DNA of 40,831 nt from a virus: IMG/VR virus record IMGVR_UViG_3300028569_000070, positions 1-40,831 of that record; one strand, given 5' to 3'. Numbering within the stretch: the stretch's first letter is position 1; every line of letters starts with the position of its first letter. Positions 2,712-26,924 of this stretch are shown in pieces. The position numbers were made by a program, and so were the translations under genes. The notes beneath the pieces are model-generated. The model worked only from the letters and a program-made list of their open reading frames with translations. It ran no database searches and was not told the origin of the DNA.

Positions 2712-2852
2712 ATTGCTGTGATTAAAATTTATGCGTTAAGGATGCGCATCCCCCTGTGTGTGTTATTTTACTTGATTAAAAGTTATCTCATCGCCAACGG
2801 CACAGCCTGCTTCGCTTCCGCTTCGTGCGGATTTTGGTTAGGTAGGTTGGTT
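2712..2852 (-). promoter_or_regulatory. Operon gap with leader motif and 12-bp palindrome
   Basis: This 141-bp stretch interrupts the otherwise tightly packed early operon. Going leftward it has a small hairpin (TCCGC/GCGGA near 2825), an AT-rich part with TAACTTTT, a perfect 12-bp palindrome GGATGCGCATCC (2740-2751), and the leader motif (TGCTGTGATT on the plus strand, 2714-2723) abutting ATG 2711. It may hold a secondary promoter or operator, but I do not see a full consensus promoter. Confidence 0.4.
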
Positions 2853-4770: not shown

Positions 4771-5130
4771 TTAGAATGGTAGTGAATTATCATCATCTGC
4801 CTGTGGGTTGCGCATCGGTGCGGGTGCAGTCGGTGCTGCACTATCAATCTGCACTTTCCAAGCACGTAGGGTATTGAACACCTTAATTGTGTTCGTCTTC
4901 GGGTTTGCCCATTCACGACCAGCAAGGTTGAAGAACACCGTTACGGTATCGTTCTCTTTCGTACCGATAACAGCATCTTTTGACTTGCCCCCGAACTCGA
5001 AGGATAGGGTCTGCGGATAGTCGGTATCTTCAAGGATTGCAAGATGCAGTTCCCGCTTCGTGAAGTTTCCGTTTGCGATTTCGGGCGTTACTCGAACTAC
5101 CCGACCGCTGATTTTTGTTGAATCTGACAT
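4771..5130 (-). CDS. DUF3127 SSB-like DNA-binding protein
   Basis: A 119-residue protein matching the Bacteroidetes DUF3127 family: KISGRVVRVTPEI, GNFTKRELHLAILEDTDYPQ, SFEFGGKSKD, DTVTVFFNLAGREWANPKTN, then FNTLRAWKV. This is an OB-fold-like domain. The C-terminus is disordered (Pro/Ala) and ends in DDDNSLPF, the acidic tip ending in LPF/IPF that bacterial SSB proteins use to recruit partners. It very likely serves as the phage single-strand binding protein next to the exonuclease genes. Confidence 0.8.
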   Translation of the reverse strand: MSDSTKISGRVVRVTPEIANGNFTKRELHLAILEDTDYPQTLSFEFGGKSKDAVIGTKENDTVTVFFNLAGREWANPKTNTIKVFNTLRAWKVQIDSAAPTAPAPMRNPQADDDNSLPF

Positions 5131-7289: not shown

Positions 7290-7390
7290 GTGCTGTGATT
7301 AAAATTAAATTACAAAAGCAAAGTAAATACATTTTTTCCGAACAATCAAAAAAAGATTGATTGCAATTCGTAACTATTTGAGAATGAACG
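7290..7390 (-). promoter_or_regulatory. Leftward promoter module with upstream box and sRNA-target leader
   Basis: Reading leftward: an upstream box CGTTCATTCTCAAATAGTTA (from 7390), an inverted repeat CAATC-N7-GATTG (7344-7360), a TTACTTTG box (7319-7326) resembling the TAnnTTTG element, and the leader TTTTAATCACAGCA ending one base before ATG 7289. The same order, and a 13-bp identical stretch of the upstream box, precede the rightward gene at 10660. A related box precedes 26286. Confidence 0.65.
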
Positions 7391-10557: not shown

Positions 10558-10656
10558 ATTCTCAACGAGTTATAGAAAAAGTACAAAAATAAATGATGCA
10601 AGGTGAATCACGTATTGGAATAAAGCCTACTTTTGCTTTACAATTTAATCACAGCA
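10558..10656 (+). promoter_or_regulatory. Rightward promoter module with upstream box and sRNA-target leader
   Basis: An upstream box ATTCTCAACGAGTTATA (10558-10574) lies exactly 102 bp before ATG 10660. A TACTTTTG box (10628-10635) lies 25 bp before it, and the leader TAATCACAGCAA (10646-10657) a few bases before it. The module at 26184-26285 repeats this with 15 of 17 box bases identical and the same 102-bp distance. No good TTTG box sits 19 nt upstream of the -7 element, so an activator probably replaces it. Confidence 0.7.
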
Positions 10657-10659
10657 ATT

Positions 10660-10980
10660 ATGAACACAATCACACCATCACCAGAATTAGTCGCTCGTTT
10701 GAAGTCAAACAGAGGCACTATCATCGCAACCTTGAACTACTGGTTTGCGGAGTACGACACTGACATTAAAACACTCATGACCGATTTCATGTTATGGGTA
10801 GCACAATGTTCTGAGCAGACTCAGAAGAAAATTGCAACTGACAAAGGCGCAAAAGAGGCAATTAAGTTTTTCTACTCCGTAACCAAGGAAAATTACGAAA
10901 CTGACTTCGGCAAACTCGACGCATCAATCGAAGCCGACAAAGCAAACAAAACAGCATTTTTCAAATCATTAGAAGCATAA
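10660..10980 (+). CDS. Hypothetical helical protein, 106 aa, first rightward gene
   Basis: Start chosen at ATG 10660 (MNTITPSPELVARLKSNRGT), immediately after the leader motif; the longer frame from 10633 overlaps the promoter. The protein is soluble and alpha-helical (FAEYDTDIKTLMTDFMLWVAQ, TKENYETDFGKLDASIEAD). No family recognised. Being first behind the divergent promoter suggests strong early expression. Confidence 0.7.
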   Translation: MNTITPSPELVARLKSNRGTIIATLNYWFAEYDTDIKTLMTDFMLWVAQCSEQTQKKIATDKGAKEAIKFFYSVTKENYETDFGKLDASIEADKANKTAFFKSLEA

Positions 10981-10988
10981 TCACAGCA
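10979..10988 (+). promoter_or_regulatory. Leader motif AATCACAGCA before 10994 gene
   Basis: A perfect copy of the repeated leader motif between two genes of the same operon, 5 bases before ATG 10994. It overlaps the stop codon of the preceding gene. No promoter-like sequence accompanies it, so here it must act at the RNA level, if it acts. Together with its T neighbour it gives 11 matches to the loop of the small RNA at 26090-26165. Confidence 0.6.
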
Positions 10989-11377: not shown

Positions 11378-12561
11378 TTCTGCTGCCAGACCAGAAGTCT
11401 GCAATCGAGAAGTTACATTGTCTGAAAGTCGGGGCGTTGTTCATGCGCCCCGGCACAGGCAAGACGCTAACCGCCGTAACGCTCGTAAACAGCACCGACG
11501 TGCCAGATGTAATCTGGTTCACGCCATTCCGCACGAAAGAAAGCCTGCAAACCGAACTTGCCAAATCCTGTCTTGTCAAAAATTGCCAAGTTATCGGAAT
11601 CGAAACGCTAAGTTCATCCGATAGAGAGTATCTACGCCTATTTAACTACGTTCAGACGCACGATTGTGTCGTTGTGGTAGATGAGTCGCTAAAAATCAAA
11701 AACAACGACGCTAAGCGCACGCAACGCATTATTGAGATTGGCAAATATGCCAAGTATAAACTCGTGCTAAACGGCACGCCCATAAGTCGCAATATTCTCG
11801 ACATCTGGGCGCAGATGGAGTTCCTATCACCACTAATCCTGAAAATGGATTATGCTGAGTTCAAAAATACATTCGTGAAATGGACGAAGGTAACAAAGTG
11901 GGTGCGAGGTAAGCAAGCCAGTAAGGAAGTAATAAATGAGTTCTGCAACATCGACTACCTGTATTCCATAATCGAACCATACGTGTATGAATCTGACCTA
12001 TTCATTCAGGTCAAGAAGATATACAACGAGGTAAAGTATAAGATTACAGACGAAGAGATGAAGGAGTACCAGCACCTTAAAGAGAAGTATCTTGACAATG
12101 AGATGTTGCAATTCTTAAACAACAATATCTTCATCGAAATGACTCAGAAGATGCAACACCTGTACTGCATAAGCGAAGATAAGGTGAATAAATTAGAAAC
12201 GCTGATGCAGACCTTGGACGAATCGAAAGTGCTGATTTATTGCAAGTACATAAAGAGTCGTGAACTACTGCAATCGCTATATCCGAACGTGTCGGTTATG
12301 TCATACGGTATGCATTCGTTCGGATTAAATTTGCAAAACAAAAACATTACCATTTATTTTGACAAGACGTTCGACTACGCTCAGCGACTGCAATCAGAAC
12401 AGCGCACATATCGAACAGGTCAGACACATGACTGCTTGTATTATGACATGACATCGAACACTGGGCTTGACACGCTGGTGAACGAAAACATAAGCAAAAA
12501 GCAGGGCATGGATGAGTATTTCCGTTCAATTAATTTACAAAAAATCTATGAAACCATTTAA
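11374..12561 (+). CDS. SNF2/DEAD-like superfamily 2 helicase
   Basis: A 395-residue protein with the helicase motifs in order: motif I MRPGTGKTLTA (24-34), motif II VVVDESLKIKN (100-110, DES in place of DEAH), motif III VLNGTPISRN (131-140), and C-terminal YRTGQTHDCLYYDM (motif VI region, RTGQ as in SNF2 RxGQ). Phages commonly carry such single-chain SNF2-like ATPases in replication regions, where they are thought to remodel DNA-protein complexes. The length is near the minimal helicase core, with no accessory domain. Confidence 0.85.
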   Translation: MILLPDQKSAIEKLHCLKVGALFMRPGTGKTLTAVTLVNSTDVPDVIWFTPFRTKESLQTELAKSCLVKNCQVIGIETLSSSDREYLRLFNYVQTHDCVVVVDESLKIKNNDAKRTQRIIEIGKYAKYKLVLNGTPISRNILDIWAQMEFLSPLILKMDYAEFKNTFVKWTKVTKWVRGKQASKEVINEFCNIDYLYSIIEPYVYESDLFIQVKKIYNEVKYKITDEEMKEYQHLKEKYLDNEMLQFLNNNIFIEMTQKMQHLYCISEDKVNKLETLMQTLDESKVLIYCKYIKSRELLQSLYPNVSVMSYGMHSFGLNLQNKNITIYFDKTFDYAQRLQSEQRTYRTGQTHDCLYYDMTSNTGLDTLVNENISKKQGMDEYFRSINLQKIYETI

Positions 12562-13096
12562 AAGTCCAGTGTACAATGTCATTGCTGTGCCGATTGATAA
12601 AATCGAAGCAAATGACTACAATCCAAACCATGTTGCAAAGCGTGAAATGGAATTGCTTTACCAGTCTATCAAATGCGATGGATATACCATGCCTATTGTC
12701 TGCTTTTATGACGCAGACAGAGATAAGTATATTATCGTCGATGGATTCCACCGTTATACAATTATGGTGCGTTACAAGTCAATTTATGACAGAGAAAATG
12801 GAATGCTACCAGTGTCGGTAATTGAGAAGGATATTAATGACCGCATGGCAAGCACAATCCGACACAACCGAGCAAGAGGAAAGCACGAAGTTGAATTGCA
12901 AGCGTCACTTGTTGGCATGCTTAAAGCAGGATGGGATGAGATAAAAATAATGAAAGAGTTAGGAATGACTTTGGAGGAGGTACAGCGACTTATCGGTATC
13001 AAGGGCATAGCATCCGAAATCATGGGCGTACCATATTCGATTGAACGACAAATAATCGAAGCAGGTGAAGATAAAAAAGGAGGCGACCATGAGTAA
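12548..13096 (+). CDS. ParB-like (IbrB-type) protein
   Basis: A 182-residue protein; start at ATG 12548, overlapping the helicase gene by 14 nt. It has the ParB N-domain pattern: VIAVPIDKIEANDYNPNHV (11-29), YTMPIVCFY, YIIVDGFHRYTIM (61-73), MASTIRHNRARGKH, then a helix-turn-helix-like stretch (MKELGMTLEEVQRLIGIKGI). ParB-like proteins next to a PAPS-reductase-like protein are known as the IbrB/IbrA pair. In this window a DNA methyltransferase lies between the two. The pair's biochemical role is unresolved. Confidence 0.8.
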   Translation: MKPFKSPVYNVIAVPIDKIEANDYNPNHVAKREMELLYQSIKCDGYTMPIVCFYDADRDKYIIVDGFHRYTIMVRYKSIYDRENGMLPVSVIEKDINDRMASTIRHNRARGKHEVELQASLVGMLKAGWDEIKIMKELGMTLEEVQRLIGIKGIASEIMGVPYSIERQIIEAGEDKKGGDHE

Positions 13097-13721
13097 ATTT
13101 GAATACAAAGGATTTTACAAAAAATATGATATGTCTGAAACGATAAAAATAGGTACTGGAATCATAAAGGTTCATGACATTTTTGATGAAATTCCTGAAT
13201 TTATGTATAATGCTGATTGTTTATTTATTGACCCACCTTGTAGTGAGTCTAATCTAAAAGCATTTTACACAAAGGCTGATTTAGAAAAAAGAGACACTAT
13301 TGTAAAATTTACTAATCGTTTATTTGAATTGATTGATAAAATAAATCCAAGGCATTTATTTATAGAATCTTTCAAATCAAACTTTGACGAGATATTTAGC
13401 AAACTTAACGAGCGTTATGGAACTAATATGGTTGTTTTTAATAGTTATTACTATGGGAAAACAAATAATAAATGCTGGATATTTTATGCCTCACTGGAAG
13501 ATATAAATTTTGATATTCCGTTTATGGATGAGGAAAAAGTTATTGAGCATATTTGCAAAAATTTAGATTTTTATTGCATTGGTGATTTATGCATGGGTAA
13601 AGGGCTTTTGGGTTTTTATGCAAATAAATATAACAAAAGGTTTGTTGGCACAGAATTAAATCAAAAACGACTTGCTTGCTTGATTGAGCATATTAATCAA
13701 GGAAAAATAATAGTAAGATAG
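13089..13721 (+). CDS. Small DNA methyltransferase-like protein (DPPC motif)
   Basis: A 210-residue protein; start at ATG 13089, preceded by a strong Shine-Dalgarno AAGGAGG (13077-13083), rare in this genome. Residues CLFIDPPCSES (44-54) match the DPPY-type catalytic motif IV of amino-methyltransferases. Residues IGDLCMGKGLLGFYANKYNK (164-183) with VGTELNQKRL match the SAM-binding motif I region. Motif IV comes before motif I, as in beta-class enzymes. DPPC is unusual, and no target-recognition domain is obvious. It is much more AT-rich than its neighbours, suggesting recent gain. It probably modifies adenine or cytosine amino groups. Confidence 0.75.
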   Translation: MSKFEYKGFYKKYDMSETIKIGTGIIKVHDIFDEIPEFMYNADCLFIDPPCSESNLKAFYTKADLEKRDTIVKFTNRLFELIDKINPRHLFIESFKSNFDEIFSKLNERYGTNMVVFNSYYYGKTNNKCWIFYASLEDINFDIPFMDEEKVIEHICKNLDFYCIGDLCMGKGLLGFYANKYNKRFVGTELNQKRLACLIEHINQGKIIVR

Positions 13722-13722
13722 T

Positions 13723-14850
13723 ATGGCACGCACAGCAATAGCAGGAGTTGAGAATGTTCTAATCGCAACGCAGAAGCGTATATCGTTTTTATTCGACAAC
13801 TACGACAATGTATCGCTATCATTTAGTGGAGGTAAGGATAGTACGGTACTTTTCCATTTGCTTAATGAAGAGGCAAAAAGACGAGACCGAAAGTTTATCG
13901 TTTATTTTCAAGACCAAGAGGCAGAATATAGCGCAACAATCGAACTTGTTGAATGGGTAATGACTCAGCCAAATGTTATACCGTTATGGTATCAAGTTCC
14001 GATATTCATGACCAATGCTGCCAGTCACCAGCAGTTATTCTTATGGGCATGGGGTGAGGGCGAAAAGTGGGTAAGAGATAAGCACCCAGTGGCAATTCAT
14101 GAACTCGATGGCAAATACCCGAAGCGATTTCATAAGTTCAATTTATGGGTAGGTCAGAACCTGCGCAAATTATCAGGCACAAGCGTATCAATTATCGGTT
14201 TGCGAGCCGAGGAAAGTCCAGACAGGCGATTCGTTTTGTTTGGCGAAGACTCAGATATGTTCTGGCTTCGGAGGGTGAATGAGCCACACAAGGCATACCC
14301 GATAATTGATTGGAAGTACAAAGACATCTGGAAGTATCTGATTGAAGGAGGATATAAGTACAATCGAATTTACGACAAAATGTACATGCTCGGACACGAC
14401 ATTAGGACGATGCGTGTATCAAATCTTGTTCACGAAAAGGCGTTCCGTTGTTTGTCGGATTTGCAGGAACTCGAACCAGATACATACAACAAACTTGAAG
14501 AGCGATTGCAGGGCGTTCATACCGCTTCGATTTACGCAAAGGAGGATTTGATTTATTCGATTAAAAGTTTGCCCGATAATTTCAAAACATGGAAAGAATA
14601 CAAAGATTTTTTATTGGACAGCATCCATCCAGACCTATCAAAACTATTCAAATATCAGTGGAGCAGGTTTGGCGATACTGACGACGTCGGAGCGTGCAAA
14701 TACATGGTGAAGCGAATCCTGCTGTGCGATTGGGAAGGCAATATAACTTGGTCAAAAGATAAATTTTACTACACTAAAGGTCAAATTCTGCACAAAAATA
14801 AATTGAAGAAAGAGGATGAGATTATAAAGAAGTGGATGGCAACATTATAG
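13723..14850 (+). CDS. PAPS reductase-like ATP pyrophosphatase (IbrA / DUF3440 type)
   Basis: A 375-residue protein with the N-type ATP pyrophosphatase P-loop SFSGGKDSTVLFHLL (33-47), IIGLRAEESPDRR, IIDWKYKDIWKYL and MRVSNLVHEKAFRCLSDLQE, the block typical of IbrA/DUF3440 proteins. These activate a substrate by adenylation; the physiological substrate is unknown. It follows the methyltransferase by 1 bp and closes the ParB-methyltransferase-PAPS cassette, ending in a terminator. DndC of DNA phosphorothioation has the same fold, but the rest of that system is absent. Confidence 0.85.
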   Translation: MARTAIAGVENVLIATQKRISFLFDNYDNVSLSFSGGKDSTVLFHLLNEEAKRRDRKFIVYFQDQEAEYSATIELVEWVMTQPNVIPLWYQVPIFMTNAASHQQLFLWAWGEGEKWVRDKHPVAIHELDGKYPKRFHKFNLWVGQNLRKLSGTSVSIIGLRAEESPDRRFVLFGEDSDMFWLRRVNEPHKAYPIIDWKYKDIWKYLIEGGYKYNRIYDKMYMLGHDIRTMRVSNLVHEKAFRCLSDLQELEPDTYNKLEERLQGVHTASIYAKEDLIYSIKSLPDNFKTWKEYKDFLLDSIHPDLSKLFKYQWSRFGDTDDVGACKYMVKRILLCDWEGNITWSKDKFYYTKGQILHKNKLKKEDEIIKKWMATL

Positions 14851-15433: not shown

Positions 15434-16761
15434 TGCCCCAACTCAACATCGCCCAACAAACCGCATACTCAGCATCGCACCTACTCGATGCAGAAGAGAT
15501 ACACATGCTTACAGGTGTCGGCGTTGGCAAAACGTACTGGCTGGCAATCGACCTAATACCAGACCTTGCGATACCAAACAGCAAGCACCTAATCTGCGCA
15601 CCTACATTCGCAATGATGAAGACCGCGACGTTCAAGAAGGTGCAGGAAGCATGGGAAGAGTGGGGATTACGTGAAGGTGAAGATTACATTGTCAATAAGC
15701 GAATGTCAGGAGTCAAACCGTATAGTGGCATATCATCCGATAAGGTCATTACCTTTCGTTGGGGCAGTTACGTCGTACTTACGCATCTCGATAATTACAA
15801 CGTCGTGAACGGTTCGGAGTGGGACACGATAAGCATTGATGAAACCCGGGACGTCCGCAACTTTCAGGAAGCACTCGATAAGTGCCGAGCAAGAACGCGT
15901 GGTATCACATTTAAGAACTTAGGTCTGCGCCACCGCATCAAGACCGCAACGACGCCACCCGACAATGTGGCGTACTATCGAGAATTGCAAAAACAGGCAA
16001 GGGAGTCACAGGGGCGTATTAGGCTCATACGTGCCGAATCGTATGCGAATATACATAATTTGCGCCAAGGCTATATCGAGCAGTTAGAACGCACCTTAGA
16101 CCCGAACTCATTCAAACGTGAAGTCTTGGGAATGCTCATAACCAAACAGGAAAGTGTGTGGGCGTATTGCTTCGACCATAAAGTGCACGTAGGCGACGCA
16201 CCCGAACTTCATCACCTGCCTATCTATGTGTCAATCGACTTCAACGTGTCGCCTATGACGTGCATTTACGCTCAGCACGAACCTGCGAAGAATAAAATCC
16301 GCATAATCGGTGAAGAGCGAATAATGAACTCCGACGCCTACGAATTGGCTCAGCGTATAAAGGTGCGCTATCCAAACACGCACAGATTGATTCTAACTGG
16401 CGATAGTTCAGGAAGGAATCGTACCAGCCACCAGAAGGGATTAACGAATTGGAAGATCATTCAGGGTCAGTTAGAAGTCAGCCCTGCACAGATTCGACTC
16501 TTATCGGAAAACCCCGACAACAAGGACAGCATCGTACTGGTCAATTCGCTATTCTCGAAACATCCTGACCTGCTCATATCGGACACCTGCAAGTACCTAA
16601 TCGAAGATTGCGAAACGATGCAACGTGATGACGATGCGAAGAAGGTCGCGCCTACTCCGCTACATGGTCACTTATTCGATTGCATGATTTATTACATGTG
16701 GACTTTCCATCGTGACTTTTTGGTTAAATTCGCAAAAACTGGTAAGTTTGTGCAGGTTTAA
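15433..16761 (+). CDS. terL: Terminase large subunit
   Basis: A 442-residue packaging ATPase and nuclease. The ATPase part has Walker A LTGVGVGKTYW (26-36) and Walker B DTISIDE (131-137). The RNase H-like nuclease part has IYVSIDFNVSPMT (about 264-276), LTGDSSGR (about 321-328) and HLFDCMIYYMW near the C-terminus, giving the three expected acidic residues. It pumps DNA into the prohead through the portal (27677-29503) and cuts it. The length is normal for a compact TerL. Confidence 0.95.
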   Translation: MPQLNIAQQTAYSASHLLDAEEIHMLTGVGVGKTYWLAIDLIPDLAIPNSKHLICAPTFAMMKTATFKKVQEAWEEWGLREGEDYIVNKRMSGVKPYSGISSDKVITFRWGSYVVLTHLDNYNVVNGSEWDTISIDETRDVRNFQEALDKCRARTRGITFKNLGLRHRIKTATTPPDNVAYYRELQKQARESQGRIRLIRAESYANIHNLRQGYIEQLERTLDPNSFKREVLGMLITKQESVWAYCFDHKVHVGDAPELHHLPIYVSIDFNVSPMTCIYAQHEPAKNKIRIIGEERIMNSDAYELAQRIKVRYPNTHRLILTGDSSGRNRTSHQKGLTNWKIIQGQLEVSPAQIRLLSENPDNKDSIVLVNSLFSKHPDLLISDTCKYLIEDCETMQRDDDAKKVAPTPLHGHLFDCMIYYMWTFHRDFLVKFAKTGKFVQV

Positions 16762-16772
16762 TTCACAGCAAC

Positions 16773-17303
16773 ATGATTACAGAAAACATCTACACATCCA
16801 ACGACGGCACGCAATGGTCAATGGTAACCGACTGGATGAACATCCCTGCCGAACGTGTCATTCCTGCCGACCTTGCCGTTACGCGTGCATCTATGGGCTT
16901 GACAGCCGACCGCCTCGTGTCTGCAATGGACGAGATTCAGAAAGATTTGGAAACGGGGCAGATAGTGGAAGGCTTCAATAAATTCGCACAACTTAAAGCA
17001 AGGATTCAGGACATTCCAGACGAGTCGTTACTTCAAGATATAGCGTGCGTTTTCGCACTATTGCCAAACGAGAAACCCGATACCTACGACCCCGAACTGA
17101 ACCGAATCAAACTACAAATCTGGGCGCAGGATGAGAAGTGTCGGTTTTTTTTTATCGAAAAAGCAGTCAGGTATATTATCGACTTATCCAACATCTCCGA
17201 CGTTGCTATCCGTACGGCTATGGAGGTGCGAAATTTAATGGAGTCCAACAACCTACCCAGCCATACCTTTCCCTTAGCACTAACTGGGCTGATGAATACC
17301 TAA
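16773..17303 (+). CDS. Probable tail assembly chaperone, upstream frame (gpG-like)
   Basis: A 176-residue mostly helical protein just before the tape measure gene, the place of the tail assembly chaperone in siphoviruses. At codons 125-127 it contains three Phe codons in a run of nine T (17145-17153). A second frame opens across the same stretch. A -1 slip there would give a fusion of about 230 residues. Assignment is by position and frame layout, not sequence similarity. The leader contains AATTCACAGCAA before ATG 16773. Confidence 0.6.
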   Translation: MITENIYTSNDGTQWSMVTDWMNIPAERVIPADLAVTRASMGLTADRLVSAMDEIQKDLETGQIVEGFNKFAQLKARIQDIPDESLLQDIACVFALLPNEKPDTYDPELNRIKLQIWAQDEKCRFFFIEKAVRYIIDLSNISDVAIRTAMEVRNLMESNNLPSHTFPLALTGLMNT

Positions 17304-24931: not shown

Positions 24932-26074
24932 ATGGGAATAAGAATAAACCATGACGCACTACCCGTAGGCACTGGCGTCGTAACAGTAGGCACGATTGAT
25001 GTAGTCGTGCCTGTGAACGTAAACAATCCATGCGCACCTTGCGACGACATCATTCAAGCCGAGGTAGTATGTAACAAGAATGACGTATGGAATCGGAATT
25101 TATGCGGTAATGACTATTGCTATAACCACCCCGTACTTGCTGGCGATTGTTTGGACTTCCAATTCCAATTTCAGAACACAAGGCAATCACGCACTGCATG
25201 GAAGTTGTACAATTACGAGCAATTGCCCAACATTCTTTACACATGGTATCACTACTCGCTGAACCCTACTAACTGGACAATTCGTGCAAGGATATTCAAC
25301 GCATGTACTGAGCAGGAGTTTACCATACCTACCCCATCCGTTCACAACTACGCAGACGACCTTATGACAGGTGCAACGGTCATGCTCGACTTGGATAGGG
25401 ACGCTTCATCACGAACACTGCCACTACTCGCATGGTATCGCTGGGTTCAGAATATAAGGTTCTGTTTGCCTACGACACTACCTACTGGCTTTCCCGAAGA
25501 GTTTTATTTCGAGTTTACGGTACGACCATTTAGCGGTGCGAACTATACCGTTTATTCTCAGGTCTATGAGATAGCGAAATGCAGACCTACGATTCAGTTA
25601 GAGGGTGTGTATAGTTATACCGATTGCTTCGGGTATCGGTATTCAGTGCCACGTCCATTGAGGGGTAGACTTGAAGAACTGGCAGACCCGTTGAAGTTTG
25701 GTGCGCAGGTAATTGCGCAGAAAAGTATCAAGACGCCCGTTGGCTATCGCAACCTGCACAGGTTCTACGGAAACGCTGAGTACAATGACTTCTTCATCGA
25801 GAAGGATATACCCGAACGTCAGTGCTACTCAATTAAGACCAAATCATATCCGATATTCCGAGTCAGATTAGACCGCTTGCCACCATACGTAGCGGAGATT
25901 TACAACAACAACATAACGGGTAGTGTCGCACTGCTGACAGGCGCAAACACACACCCTGCTACGTTACAGGTTCAGCCACAAGGCGGTGCATCGAAATCGA
26001 ACGACGACAATAATATGTGGTACGTTGATAATAATTTAAGAGGATGCGAATGTTTGGATTATCAGCAATGTTGA
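24932..26074 (+). CDS. Cysteine-rich tail protein, 380 aa
   Basis: It follows the propeller protein by 2 bp. The N-terminus is beta-rich (VGTGVVTVGTIDVVVPVNV), followed by a cysteine-rich segment (NPCAPCDDI, EVVCN, NLCGNDYCYN, AGDCLDFQF). The three consecutive tail genes share this cysteine-rich, Asn-rich beta style. It is the last gene before the terminator at 26133-26164. The exact role is unknown; tail fibre or baseplate component is likely by position. The small-RNA promoter lies inside its 3' end. Confidence 0.6.
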   Translation: MGIRINHDALPVGTGVVTVGTIDVVVPVNVNNPCAPCDDIIQAEVVCNKNDVWNRNLCGNDYCYNHPVLAGDCLDFQFQFQNTRQSRTAWKLYNYEQLPNILYTWYHYSLNPTNWTIRARIFNACTEQEFTIPTPSVHNYADDLMTGATVMLDLDRDASSRTLPLLAWYRWVQNIRFCLPTTLPTGFPEEFYFEFTVRPFSGANYTVYSQVYEIAKCRPTIQLEGVYSYTDCFGYRYSVPRPLRGRLEELADPLKFGAQVIAQKSIKTPVGYRNLHRFYGNAEYNDFFIEKDIPERQCYSIKTKSYPIFRVRLDRLPPYVAEIYNNNITGSVALLTGANTHPATLQVQPQGGASKSNDDNNMWYVDNNLRGCECLDYQQC

Positions 26075-26083
26075 TTATCTTTG
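26053..26083 (+). promoter_or_regulatory. Consensus Bacteroidetes promoter (TTTG-N19-TATCTTTG)
   Basis: TTTG (26053-26056), exactly 19 nt, then TATCTTTG (26076-26083): a full match to the -33/-7 consensus. The predicted start is about 26090. No gene lies downstream before a terminator 75 nt away, so it drives a small RNA. The -33 box lies inside the end of the preceding tail gene. Confidence 0.8.
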
Positions 26084-26089
26084 TCGCAT

Positions 26090-26165
26090 GGTTCTTGCTG
26101 TGATTAGACTTTGAACCGTTGAATGGTTACAGATACCGCATATCGCCAGATGTGCGGTATTTTTG
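26090..26165 (+). ncRNA. Small RNA with loop antisense to the phage leader motif
   Basis: About 75 nt from the predicted start to the terminator. The 5' hairpin pairs GGUUC (26090-26094) with GAACC (26113-26117) and exposes an 18-nt loop containing UUGCUGUGAUUA (26095-26106). The reverse complement, TAATCACAGCAA, is found in full before the starts at 2711 (minus) and 10660. It is present over 11 nt before 7289 (minus) and 10994, over 9 nt before 16773, and with one G-U pair before 26286. The RNA therefore looks like a trans-acting regulator of phage translation. There is no reading frame longer than a few codons. Confidence 0.7.
26133..26164 (+). terminator. Terminator of the small RNA and upstream tail operon
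   Basis: ATACCGCATAT (26133-26143) pairs with ATGTGCGGTAT (26150-26160), 11 bp with one G-U, loop CGCCAG, followed by TTTT-G-TTT. A strong intrinsic terminator. Confidence 0.9.
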
Positions 26166-26183
26166 TTTAAAATAATTGGCTTG

Positions 26184-26285
26184 ATTATCAGCGAGTTATA
26201 AAAAAGATTGGGTTGTATGCTTTGATTATGTAAACCGAATCAAAAAAAGCGCTTTCTTTGTATTATAAATTTTAACAATCACGGC
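26184..26285 (+). promoter_or_regulatory. Promoter module of the three-gene cassette
   Basis: Upstream box ATTATCAGCGAGTTATA (26184-26200), exactly 102 bp before ATG 26286; it matches the box before 10660 at 15 of 17 bases and the same distance. TTTCTTTG (26253-26260) is the -7-like box. The leader AATCACGGC (26277-26285) runs into the ATG and pairs with the small-RNA loop with one G-U. It gives the cassette early-type expression inside the late region. Confidence 0.65.
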
Positions 26286-26504
26286 ATGACAACTCAAGAA
26301 ATCAATAAAGAAAGAAATGCGAACGGTGTGTTCTCAACAAGTAATGATGCATCTGGATGGTTTGCAATATCAAGAGACGGTATTAATATGATTACATTTT
26401 ATCAAGGTAAATTTACGTTTACATTAAAAGATGATGTAAATAAATTTTACTCTGAAAAAGGATTTGCTCAAAAAATTACTAAACTATTAAACGGAGGATT
26501 TTAA
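26286..26504 (+). CDS. Small cassette protein 1, 72 aa
   Basis: A soluble, beta-rich small protein (MTTQEINKERNANGVFSTSN; WFAISRDGINMITFYQGKFT) with a short helical end (FAQKITKLLNGGF). It is AT-rich compared with the surrounding virion genes. First of three genes between their own promoter and terminator, a moron-like arrangement. No family recognised. Confidence 0.65.
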   Translation: MTTQEINKERNANGVFSTSNDASGWFAISRDGINMITFYQGKFTFTLKDDVNKFYSEKGFAQKITKLLNGGF

Positions 26505-26505
26505 T

Positions 26506-26721
26506 ATGGAAAAGCCAATACAAATAGGAATTGATGAGTGGTGGTTTAAAGGGTGCTTTATCCAAAAGCAAATACACCCACAATTAAAGACTTACCACGT
26601 TTTTAAAGATACTGAGCAGCAAGAAACCATTGATACCTGCTTTACTTTTATAGAAGCAAAAAAGCTATGTAATCTTAATGAAGTAAAAGATTTTAAGCAA
26701 GGATATAAAGCATTTTTATAA
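26506..26721 (+). CDS. Small cassette protein 2, 71 aa
   Basis: It starts at ATG 26506, behind CGGAGG, a possible Shine-Dalgarno, 1 bp after the previous stop. Sequence IQIGIDEWWFKGCFIQKQIH and YHVFKDTEQQETIDTCFTF, with a helical C-terminus. Soluble; no domain recognised. Co-transcribed with its two neighbours. Confidence 0.65.
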   Translation: MEKPIQIGIDEWWFKGCFIQKQIHPQLKTYHVFKDTEQQETIDTCFTFIEAKKLCNLNEVKDFKQGYKAFL

Positions 26722-26924
26722 TGAAAAACCTAATTGATATTATAGACACAACCAACGAACCAAACATTTTACAAAAAATGGAATGGGGCGGAAGTCGTAA
26801 AAATGCTGGTGCTAAGCCAAGATATTCAGAACCAACTAAAGTCGTATCGTTTCGGTGCCCAATGTCAAAAGAAAGTGAACTAAAATCACTTATCAGTGCA
26901 AAGTTAGCCGAGTGGGCTATGTAA
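26721..26924 (+). CDS. Ribbon-helix-helix-like small protein
   Basis: A 67-residue protein. EWGGSRKNAGAKPRYSEPTK followed by VVSFRCPMSKESELKSLISA resembles the common phage/plasmid pattern WGG-x-R-x-GAGRP ... TxxVSFRVP-x-helix. That pattern is a basic arm followed by a ribbon-helix-helix-like DNA-binding domain. It may autoregulate the cassette. The ATG overlaps the preceding stop (TAATG). A cysteine replaces the usual valine in FRCP. Confidence 0.65.
   Translation: MKNLIDIIDTTNEPNILQKMEWGGSRKNAGAKPRYSEPTKVVSFRCPMSKESELKSLISAKLAEWAM

Follow-up and report, generated by a model that had tools for sequence, protein, structure and literature searches.

Translation of a phage mRNA can be blocked at initiation by a small antisense RNA from the phage itself, as described for sar of P22 and c4 of P1 and P7 in a 2025 review; the c4 RNA binds its target around the ribosome binding site, probably through its loops (PMC12197685). 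VpdS of the Vibrio phage VP882 and PreS of lambda are likewise trans-acting phage RNAs, of 50-90 nt, and both work with Hfq, the former on phage and host mRNAs and the latter on host dnaN. The phage sRNAs in the passages of that review considered here target one mRNA, a few mRNAs or the host, and no RNA among them corresponds to a leader motif that recurs in operons of the phage itself (PMC12197685). For phages of Bacteroidota, nothing relevant on sRNAs was found in the open-licence literature, where absence is not proof. To our knowledge, gene regulation in these phages has been little studied. The locus considered here lies in a 40.8 kb IMG/VR virus record, analysed over its whole length (40,831 nucleotides, hereafter the window), from a phage of Bacteroidota-type bacteria with genes for terminase subunits, a tape measure protein, a DnaB-like helicase and a RecE/YqaJ-like exonuclease. 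Judging from its sequence, this locus is predicted to encode an RNA that probably pairs with early-gene messages and shuts them off late in infection.

The small RNA unit and the leader motif

Downstream of the stop codon of a tail ORF, a box of the TANNTTTG type is followed by about 75 gene-free nucleotides and a strong 14-bp terminator. The RNA element UUGCUGUGAUUA of this unit is complementary to a motif, TTTAATCACAGCA, that lies 1-5 nt 5' of the ATG in five genes. The features, in window coordinates, are as follows.

24932..26074, plus strand: tail-region ORF of 380 aa, directly 5' of the small RNA in every relative carrying the unit
26053..26056, plus strand: TTTG, -33-like, within the last codons of the tail ORF and separated by 19 nt from TATCTTTG
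26076..26083, plus strand: -7 promoter box TATCTTTG, of the Bacteroidota type TANNTTTG, outside the tail ORF and kept in relatives
26090..26166, plus strand: predicted small RNA of ~75 nt, its putative transcription start placed from the -7 box
26095..26108, plus strand: antisense element UUGCUGUGAUUAGA, within the 5' hairpin (loop region)
26131..26162, plus strand: intrinsic terminator with a 14-bp fold, common to the small RNA and the tail operon
2714..2726, minus strand: leader motif TTTAATCACAGCA before ATG 2711 of a 49-aa ORF
7291..7303, minus strand: leader motif of ATG 7289, the start of the operon that includes the YqaJ/RecE-like exonuclease
10644..10656, plus strand: leader motif before ATG 10660 of a 106-aa ORF
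10976..10988, plus strand: leader motif CATAATCACAGCA before ATG 10994, overlapping the stop codon of the preceding ORF, with no promoter box near
16758..16770, plus strand: leader motif TTAATTCACAGCA, a 9-base match, in front of ATG 16773 and partly shared with the stop codon of the large terminase gene
26270..26282, plus strand: relatives'-type motif TTTTAACAATCAC before ATG 26286

The original prediction was confirmed as a whole and its coordinates were correct (TTTG at 26053-26056, 19 nt, TATCTTTG at 26076-26083 and TTGCTGTGATTA at 26095-26106). It had claimed a full promoter, of which the -7 box stood, being conserved in relatives as TATCTTTG, TAACTTTG or TATATTTG together with the terminator. 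The TTTG, however, coincides with conserved C-terminal codons of the tail ORF (LRGC[DE]CLDYQQC*) and is not independent evidence of a promoter, because conserved coding sequence explains it. The terminator hairpin was also found, folding over 14 bp (26131-26162) rather than the 11 bp proposed. The small RNA folded better than shuffled sequences (z = -4.05), and UUGCUGUGAUUA falls in the 5' hairpin, within its loop region and partly inside a weak internal stem. No Rfam family reached the gathering score for this RNA, the best sub-threshold hit being Trp_leader (E = 0.19). A short hydrophobic peptide or small protein gene across the unit was considered and rejected, as its reading frame is not kept in relatives: the window frame ATGTTGATTATC..CTGTGA is interrupted by TAA in G005 (ATGTTAATGTAA) and in L016, L026 and L028 (GTGTTAAAATAA).

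Exact copies of TAATCACAGCA were present in four of the leaders for which a match had been reported (2711 and 7289 on the minus strand, 10660 and 10994 on the plus strand) and, together with the antisense copy in the RNA, gave 5 copies in the window vs 0.03 expected. The 9-base match at 16773 was recovered as described, and the leader of 26286, TTTTAACAATCACGGC, is of the relatives' type and matches the window RNA only with the G-U pair that had been noted. The supposed shortened forms AATCAGCA before 14939 and 32617 did not hold, with 7 copies in the window vs 2.5 expected and 5 of the 7 not before a gene start. Directly after the small RNA, the stretch 26286-26924 holds three small A+T-rich ORFs without a match in relatives, the first with a leader of the type of the group 1 relatives below (TTTTAACAATCACGGC-ATG), as if imported from such a phage.

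For a genome-wide scan, a 45-nt window was moved along both strands, and the leaders antisense to it were counted at each position. Both at k = 10 and at k = 11, the RNA locus came first among the 12,999 windows, with 4 leaders (best elsewhere 3 and 2, respectively); at 9 bases, A+T-rich windows equalled or beat it. The 8-mers most enriched in leaders, found without using the RNA, were TCACAGCA, AATCACAG, ATCACAGC and TAATCACA, and the motifs enriched in this independent manner are those complementary to the RNA. Exact complementary runs discriminated where whole-leader duplex energies (31-nt leaders against the whole RNA) failed, the latter being swamped by G+C-rich windows.

Loop and leader among relatives

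Relatives were sought in IMG/VR with the tail ORF, terminase, helicase and head genes, which gave three sets, and the unit was found to stay in place in them. In group 1 (L006-L010, L038-L041 and L050-L055; records G001, G002 and G004-G008), the unit, where covered, consists of the -7 box, GGTTACTTTTTTTCGTGATTGTTTAAAAGGTT (variant in G008) and a G+C-rich terminator. The early-gene leaders of this group carry TTTAAACAATCAC or close variants, mostly 3-5 nt from the ATG and sometimes in tandem (G005 22539 and 22554), and TTTAAACAATCAC is exactly complementary to GTGATTGTTTAAA of the group 1 RNA. The loop/leader pairs are UUGCUGUGAUUAGA with TTTAATCACAGCAA in the window and GUGAUUGUUUAAA with TTTAAACAATCAC in group 1; the core AAUCAC/GUGAUU is common to both, and the flanks differ on both RNA and leader. 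Beside the core, leader positions -1, -2 and -3 are U, U and U in the window, paired with A, G and A, and C, A and A in group 1, paired with G, U and U. Since the flanking bases differ on the RNA side and on the leader side, both have changed with the pairing kept. The change is seen in orthologues, the head gene of the exonuclease operon reading TTTTAATCACAGCAC-ATG in the window vs CTTTAAACAATCATAATC-ATG in G005, which has RNA and leaders on a single contig. For G004 and G001, RNA and leaders are assigned to one phage because the contig ends overlap over 185 bp with 98.9% identity and G006 connects the two contigs at 95-99%. Between G005 and L010, identity is 100% over nt 1-36 of the RNA and 74% over the DNA of the adjacent tail gene. 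The complementarity to mRNAs encoded elsewhere is supported by this coupled change, and the original proposal of a trans-acting RNA pairing with the leaders of early and accessory genes passed the covariation check that had been suggested along with it. Only two loop types stand behind the coupled change, which therefore represents few independent events, and the window type has a single known genome. Two group 1 sites were weak, matching only 7 and 9 bases (G005 24221 and 15037, respectively), and half of the group 1 antisense element is predicted to be paired within the RNA's own hairpin.

Two further observations concern group 1. A second GTGATTGTTTGG lies within the last codons of its tail gene, at 57 nt 5' of the GTGATTGTTTAA of the RNA (L010 11130-11165; G005 near 5056-5068). 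At 12512-14850 of the window, a ParB-like and a PAPS-reductase/DUF3440 gene, a pair which we take to be IbrB/IbrA-like, are ~90% identical to group 1, compared with ~60% for the structural genes.

The window and group 1 RNAs were each found to fit the leaders of their own phages. The longest Watson-Crick helix formed by the five window leaders was 9-12 with the window RNA vs 5-7 with the group 1 RNA, and that of most group 1 leaders was 9-13 with their own RNA vs 5-7 with the window RNA. As these leaders had been preselected by motif, unbiased run counts give a sounder comparison. With the fitting RNA, runs of at least 9 were found in 5 leaders of the window (0.40 expected), 5 of G005 (0.70), 7 of G001 (0.75) and 3 of G002 (0.20); when the RNAs of the window and of group 1 were exchanged, the counts were 3 in the window (0.85 expected) and 0 in G005, G001 and G002. 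Duplex energies for the five window leaders were -18 to -20 kcal/mol with their own RNA vs -7 to -14 kcal/mol with that of group 1.

Other relatives carry the unit with no such partner. Group 2 (L016, L017, L023, L024, L026, L028 and L035; records G009 and G011) and G003 have a TANNTTTG-to-terminator unit at the equivalent place, the first 30 nt being 94-100% identical among group 2 members. Neither a complementary motif nor an antisense excess was found when the RNAs of G009, G011 and G003 were compared with their own leaders. The promoter-to-terminator units at G009 15227 (minus strand) and G003 33117 have unrelated loops, and either specify an RNA with targets elsewhere or are vestigial; for group 2 and G003, the pairing with leaders may have been acquired later or lost, if the RNA has no other targets. 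In G008 (L009 3469-3640), the tail gene and the small RNA are set apart by an additional terminator hairpin and by a relocated TATATCTTTG box; this record carries a third loop type, CTGTGATTGGAAAAATTG, for which a matching leader would read CCAATCACAG. A third coupled pair could not be established, the early region with the leaders of G008 not being found among the relatives. G007, from the same sample, is 94.6% identical to G001, and G008 is 83.7% identical to G004; the two may therefore be different phages. In a search for window-type relatives, a scan for TTTAATCACAGCA-N0-3-ATG gave 92 matches with no close relative among the loci listed, and the two-copy loci inspected had their copies mostly within coding sequence. 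No relative of the tail ORF was found in annotated phages by DNA or protein, and none was found in bacterial genomes.

It could be argued that the terminator region is complementary by accident to a leader motif with another role, since the match was chosen by eye in the first reading and two further relative groups have the unit without a leader match. Such a coincidence is most improbable, given that the RNA locus is the top window across the phage genome and that the syntenic unit of group 1 is again an exact complement, with a different motif.

Proposed mode and direction of action

We consider it likely that a late-made trans-acting RNA of ~75 nt masks the start sites of early operons, with transcription, pairing in the cell, repression and timing all predicted from sequence comparison. 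Late transcription would yield this RNA by starting at its -7 box, by running on through the tail operon, so that the RNA is the 3' end of that mRNA, or in both ways; the G008 terminator, which separates the tail gene from the -7 box of the RNA, was counted in favour of this explanation. The 5' element would then pair over 9-14 bases with the leader motif ending 1-5 nt before the ATG, mostly at the heads of early operons such as the exonuclease operon and the helicase/ParB/PAPS-reductase operon. The helix, spanning about -4 to -17 and in some relatives the AUG too, would block ribosome entry, so that early operons would be shut off while late genes run.

The motif might instead be a DNA operator, to which a phage regulator of transcription binds close to early promoters; the copy behind the tail gene would be a further such site, in opposite orientation, controlling the promoter at that place. 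Several motifs do lie just 3' of a -7 box, as does the copy in the small-RNA unit, and operators drifting along with their regulator would also explain the coupled change. The gap between motif and ATG, however, was 1-5 nt in nearly all near-exact sites of the window and relatives, whereas the distance to the -7 box ranged from 7 to 25 nt, or no box was found, so that no fixed place relative to promoters emerged. Several sites either share bases with an upstream stop codon or come shortly after one; those at 10976, 16758 and G005 24205 are of the overlapping kind. RNA pairing is therefore favoured over an operator by the fixed distance to the ATG, the variable distance to the promoter and the sites inside operons. 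The near-exact leader copies also share one orientation, opposite to that of the unit copy, and the unit is closed by a terminator, with 36 conserved nucleotides that extend beyond the motif; on these grounds an operator is unlikely.

The same RNA-RNA pairing could also activate or stabilise its targets, through protection of 5' ends or recruitment of ribosomes in a host without Shine-Dalgarno pairing. In several cases the motif is at the 5' end of a short leader, and Bacteroidia ribosomes do not recognise Shine-Dalgarno sequences (PMC9976891). Activation nevertheless appears quite improbable: the leaders, mostly unpaired on their own (mean 0.54-0.85 unpaired), leave little to open, and the start region would be covered by the pairing, which at G004 18599 includes the AUG (15 pairs with wobble). 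Masking of start sites is more likely than their opening, because the predicted helix would occupy positions of about -17 to -4 in leaders that are for the most part unstructured. In Flavobacterium johnsoniae, initiation is lowered by structure near the start codon (PMC6847099).

Comparison with known systems

The masking RNA proposed here may, as a tentative and rather doubtful extension, serve a phage-wide early/late translation switch, in which one RNA and a repeated leader 'address' differ between related phages and each RNA reads only its own early mRNAs. The two would form an orthogonal code in hosts of a phylum that lacks Shine-Dalgarno pairing, and might also discriminate against co-infecting relatives. 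Apart from this extension, a single RNA fitting a leader motif that is repeated in several operons, with RNA and leaders changing jointly between related phages, would be a multi-operon post-transcriptional phage switch, and would offer a simple orthogonal leader/RNA pair for hosts not using Shine-Dalgarno pairing. Bacterial sRNAs derived from 3' UTRs are located after a stop codon and share the terminator of their operon. The window RNA resembles them in both respects, but differs in having its own -7 box and in that a terminator splits off the upstream gene in G008. In comparison with VpdS and PreS, it is predicted to act on early genes of the phage itself, and it has no known chaperone. Whereas sar and c4 act on ant mRNA (PMC12197685), the window RNA matches a repeated leader motif of several genes on both strands.
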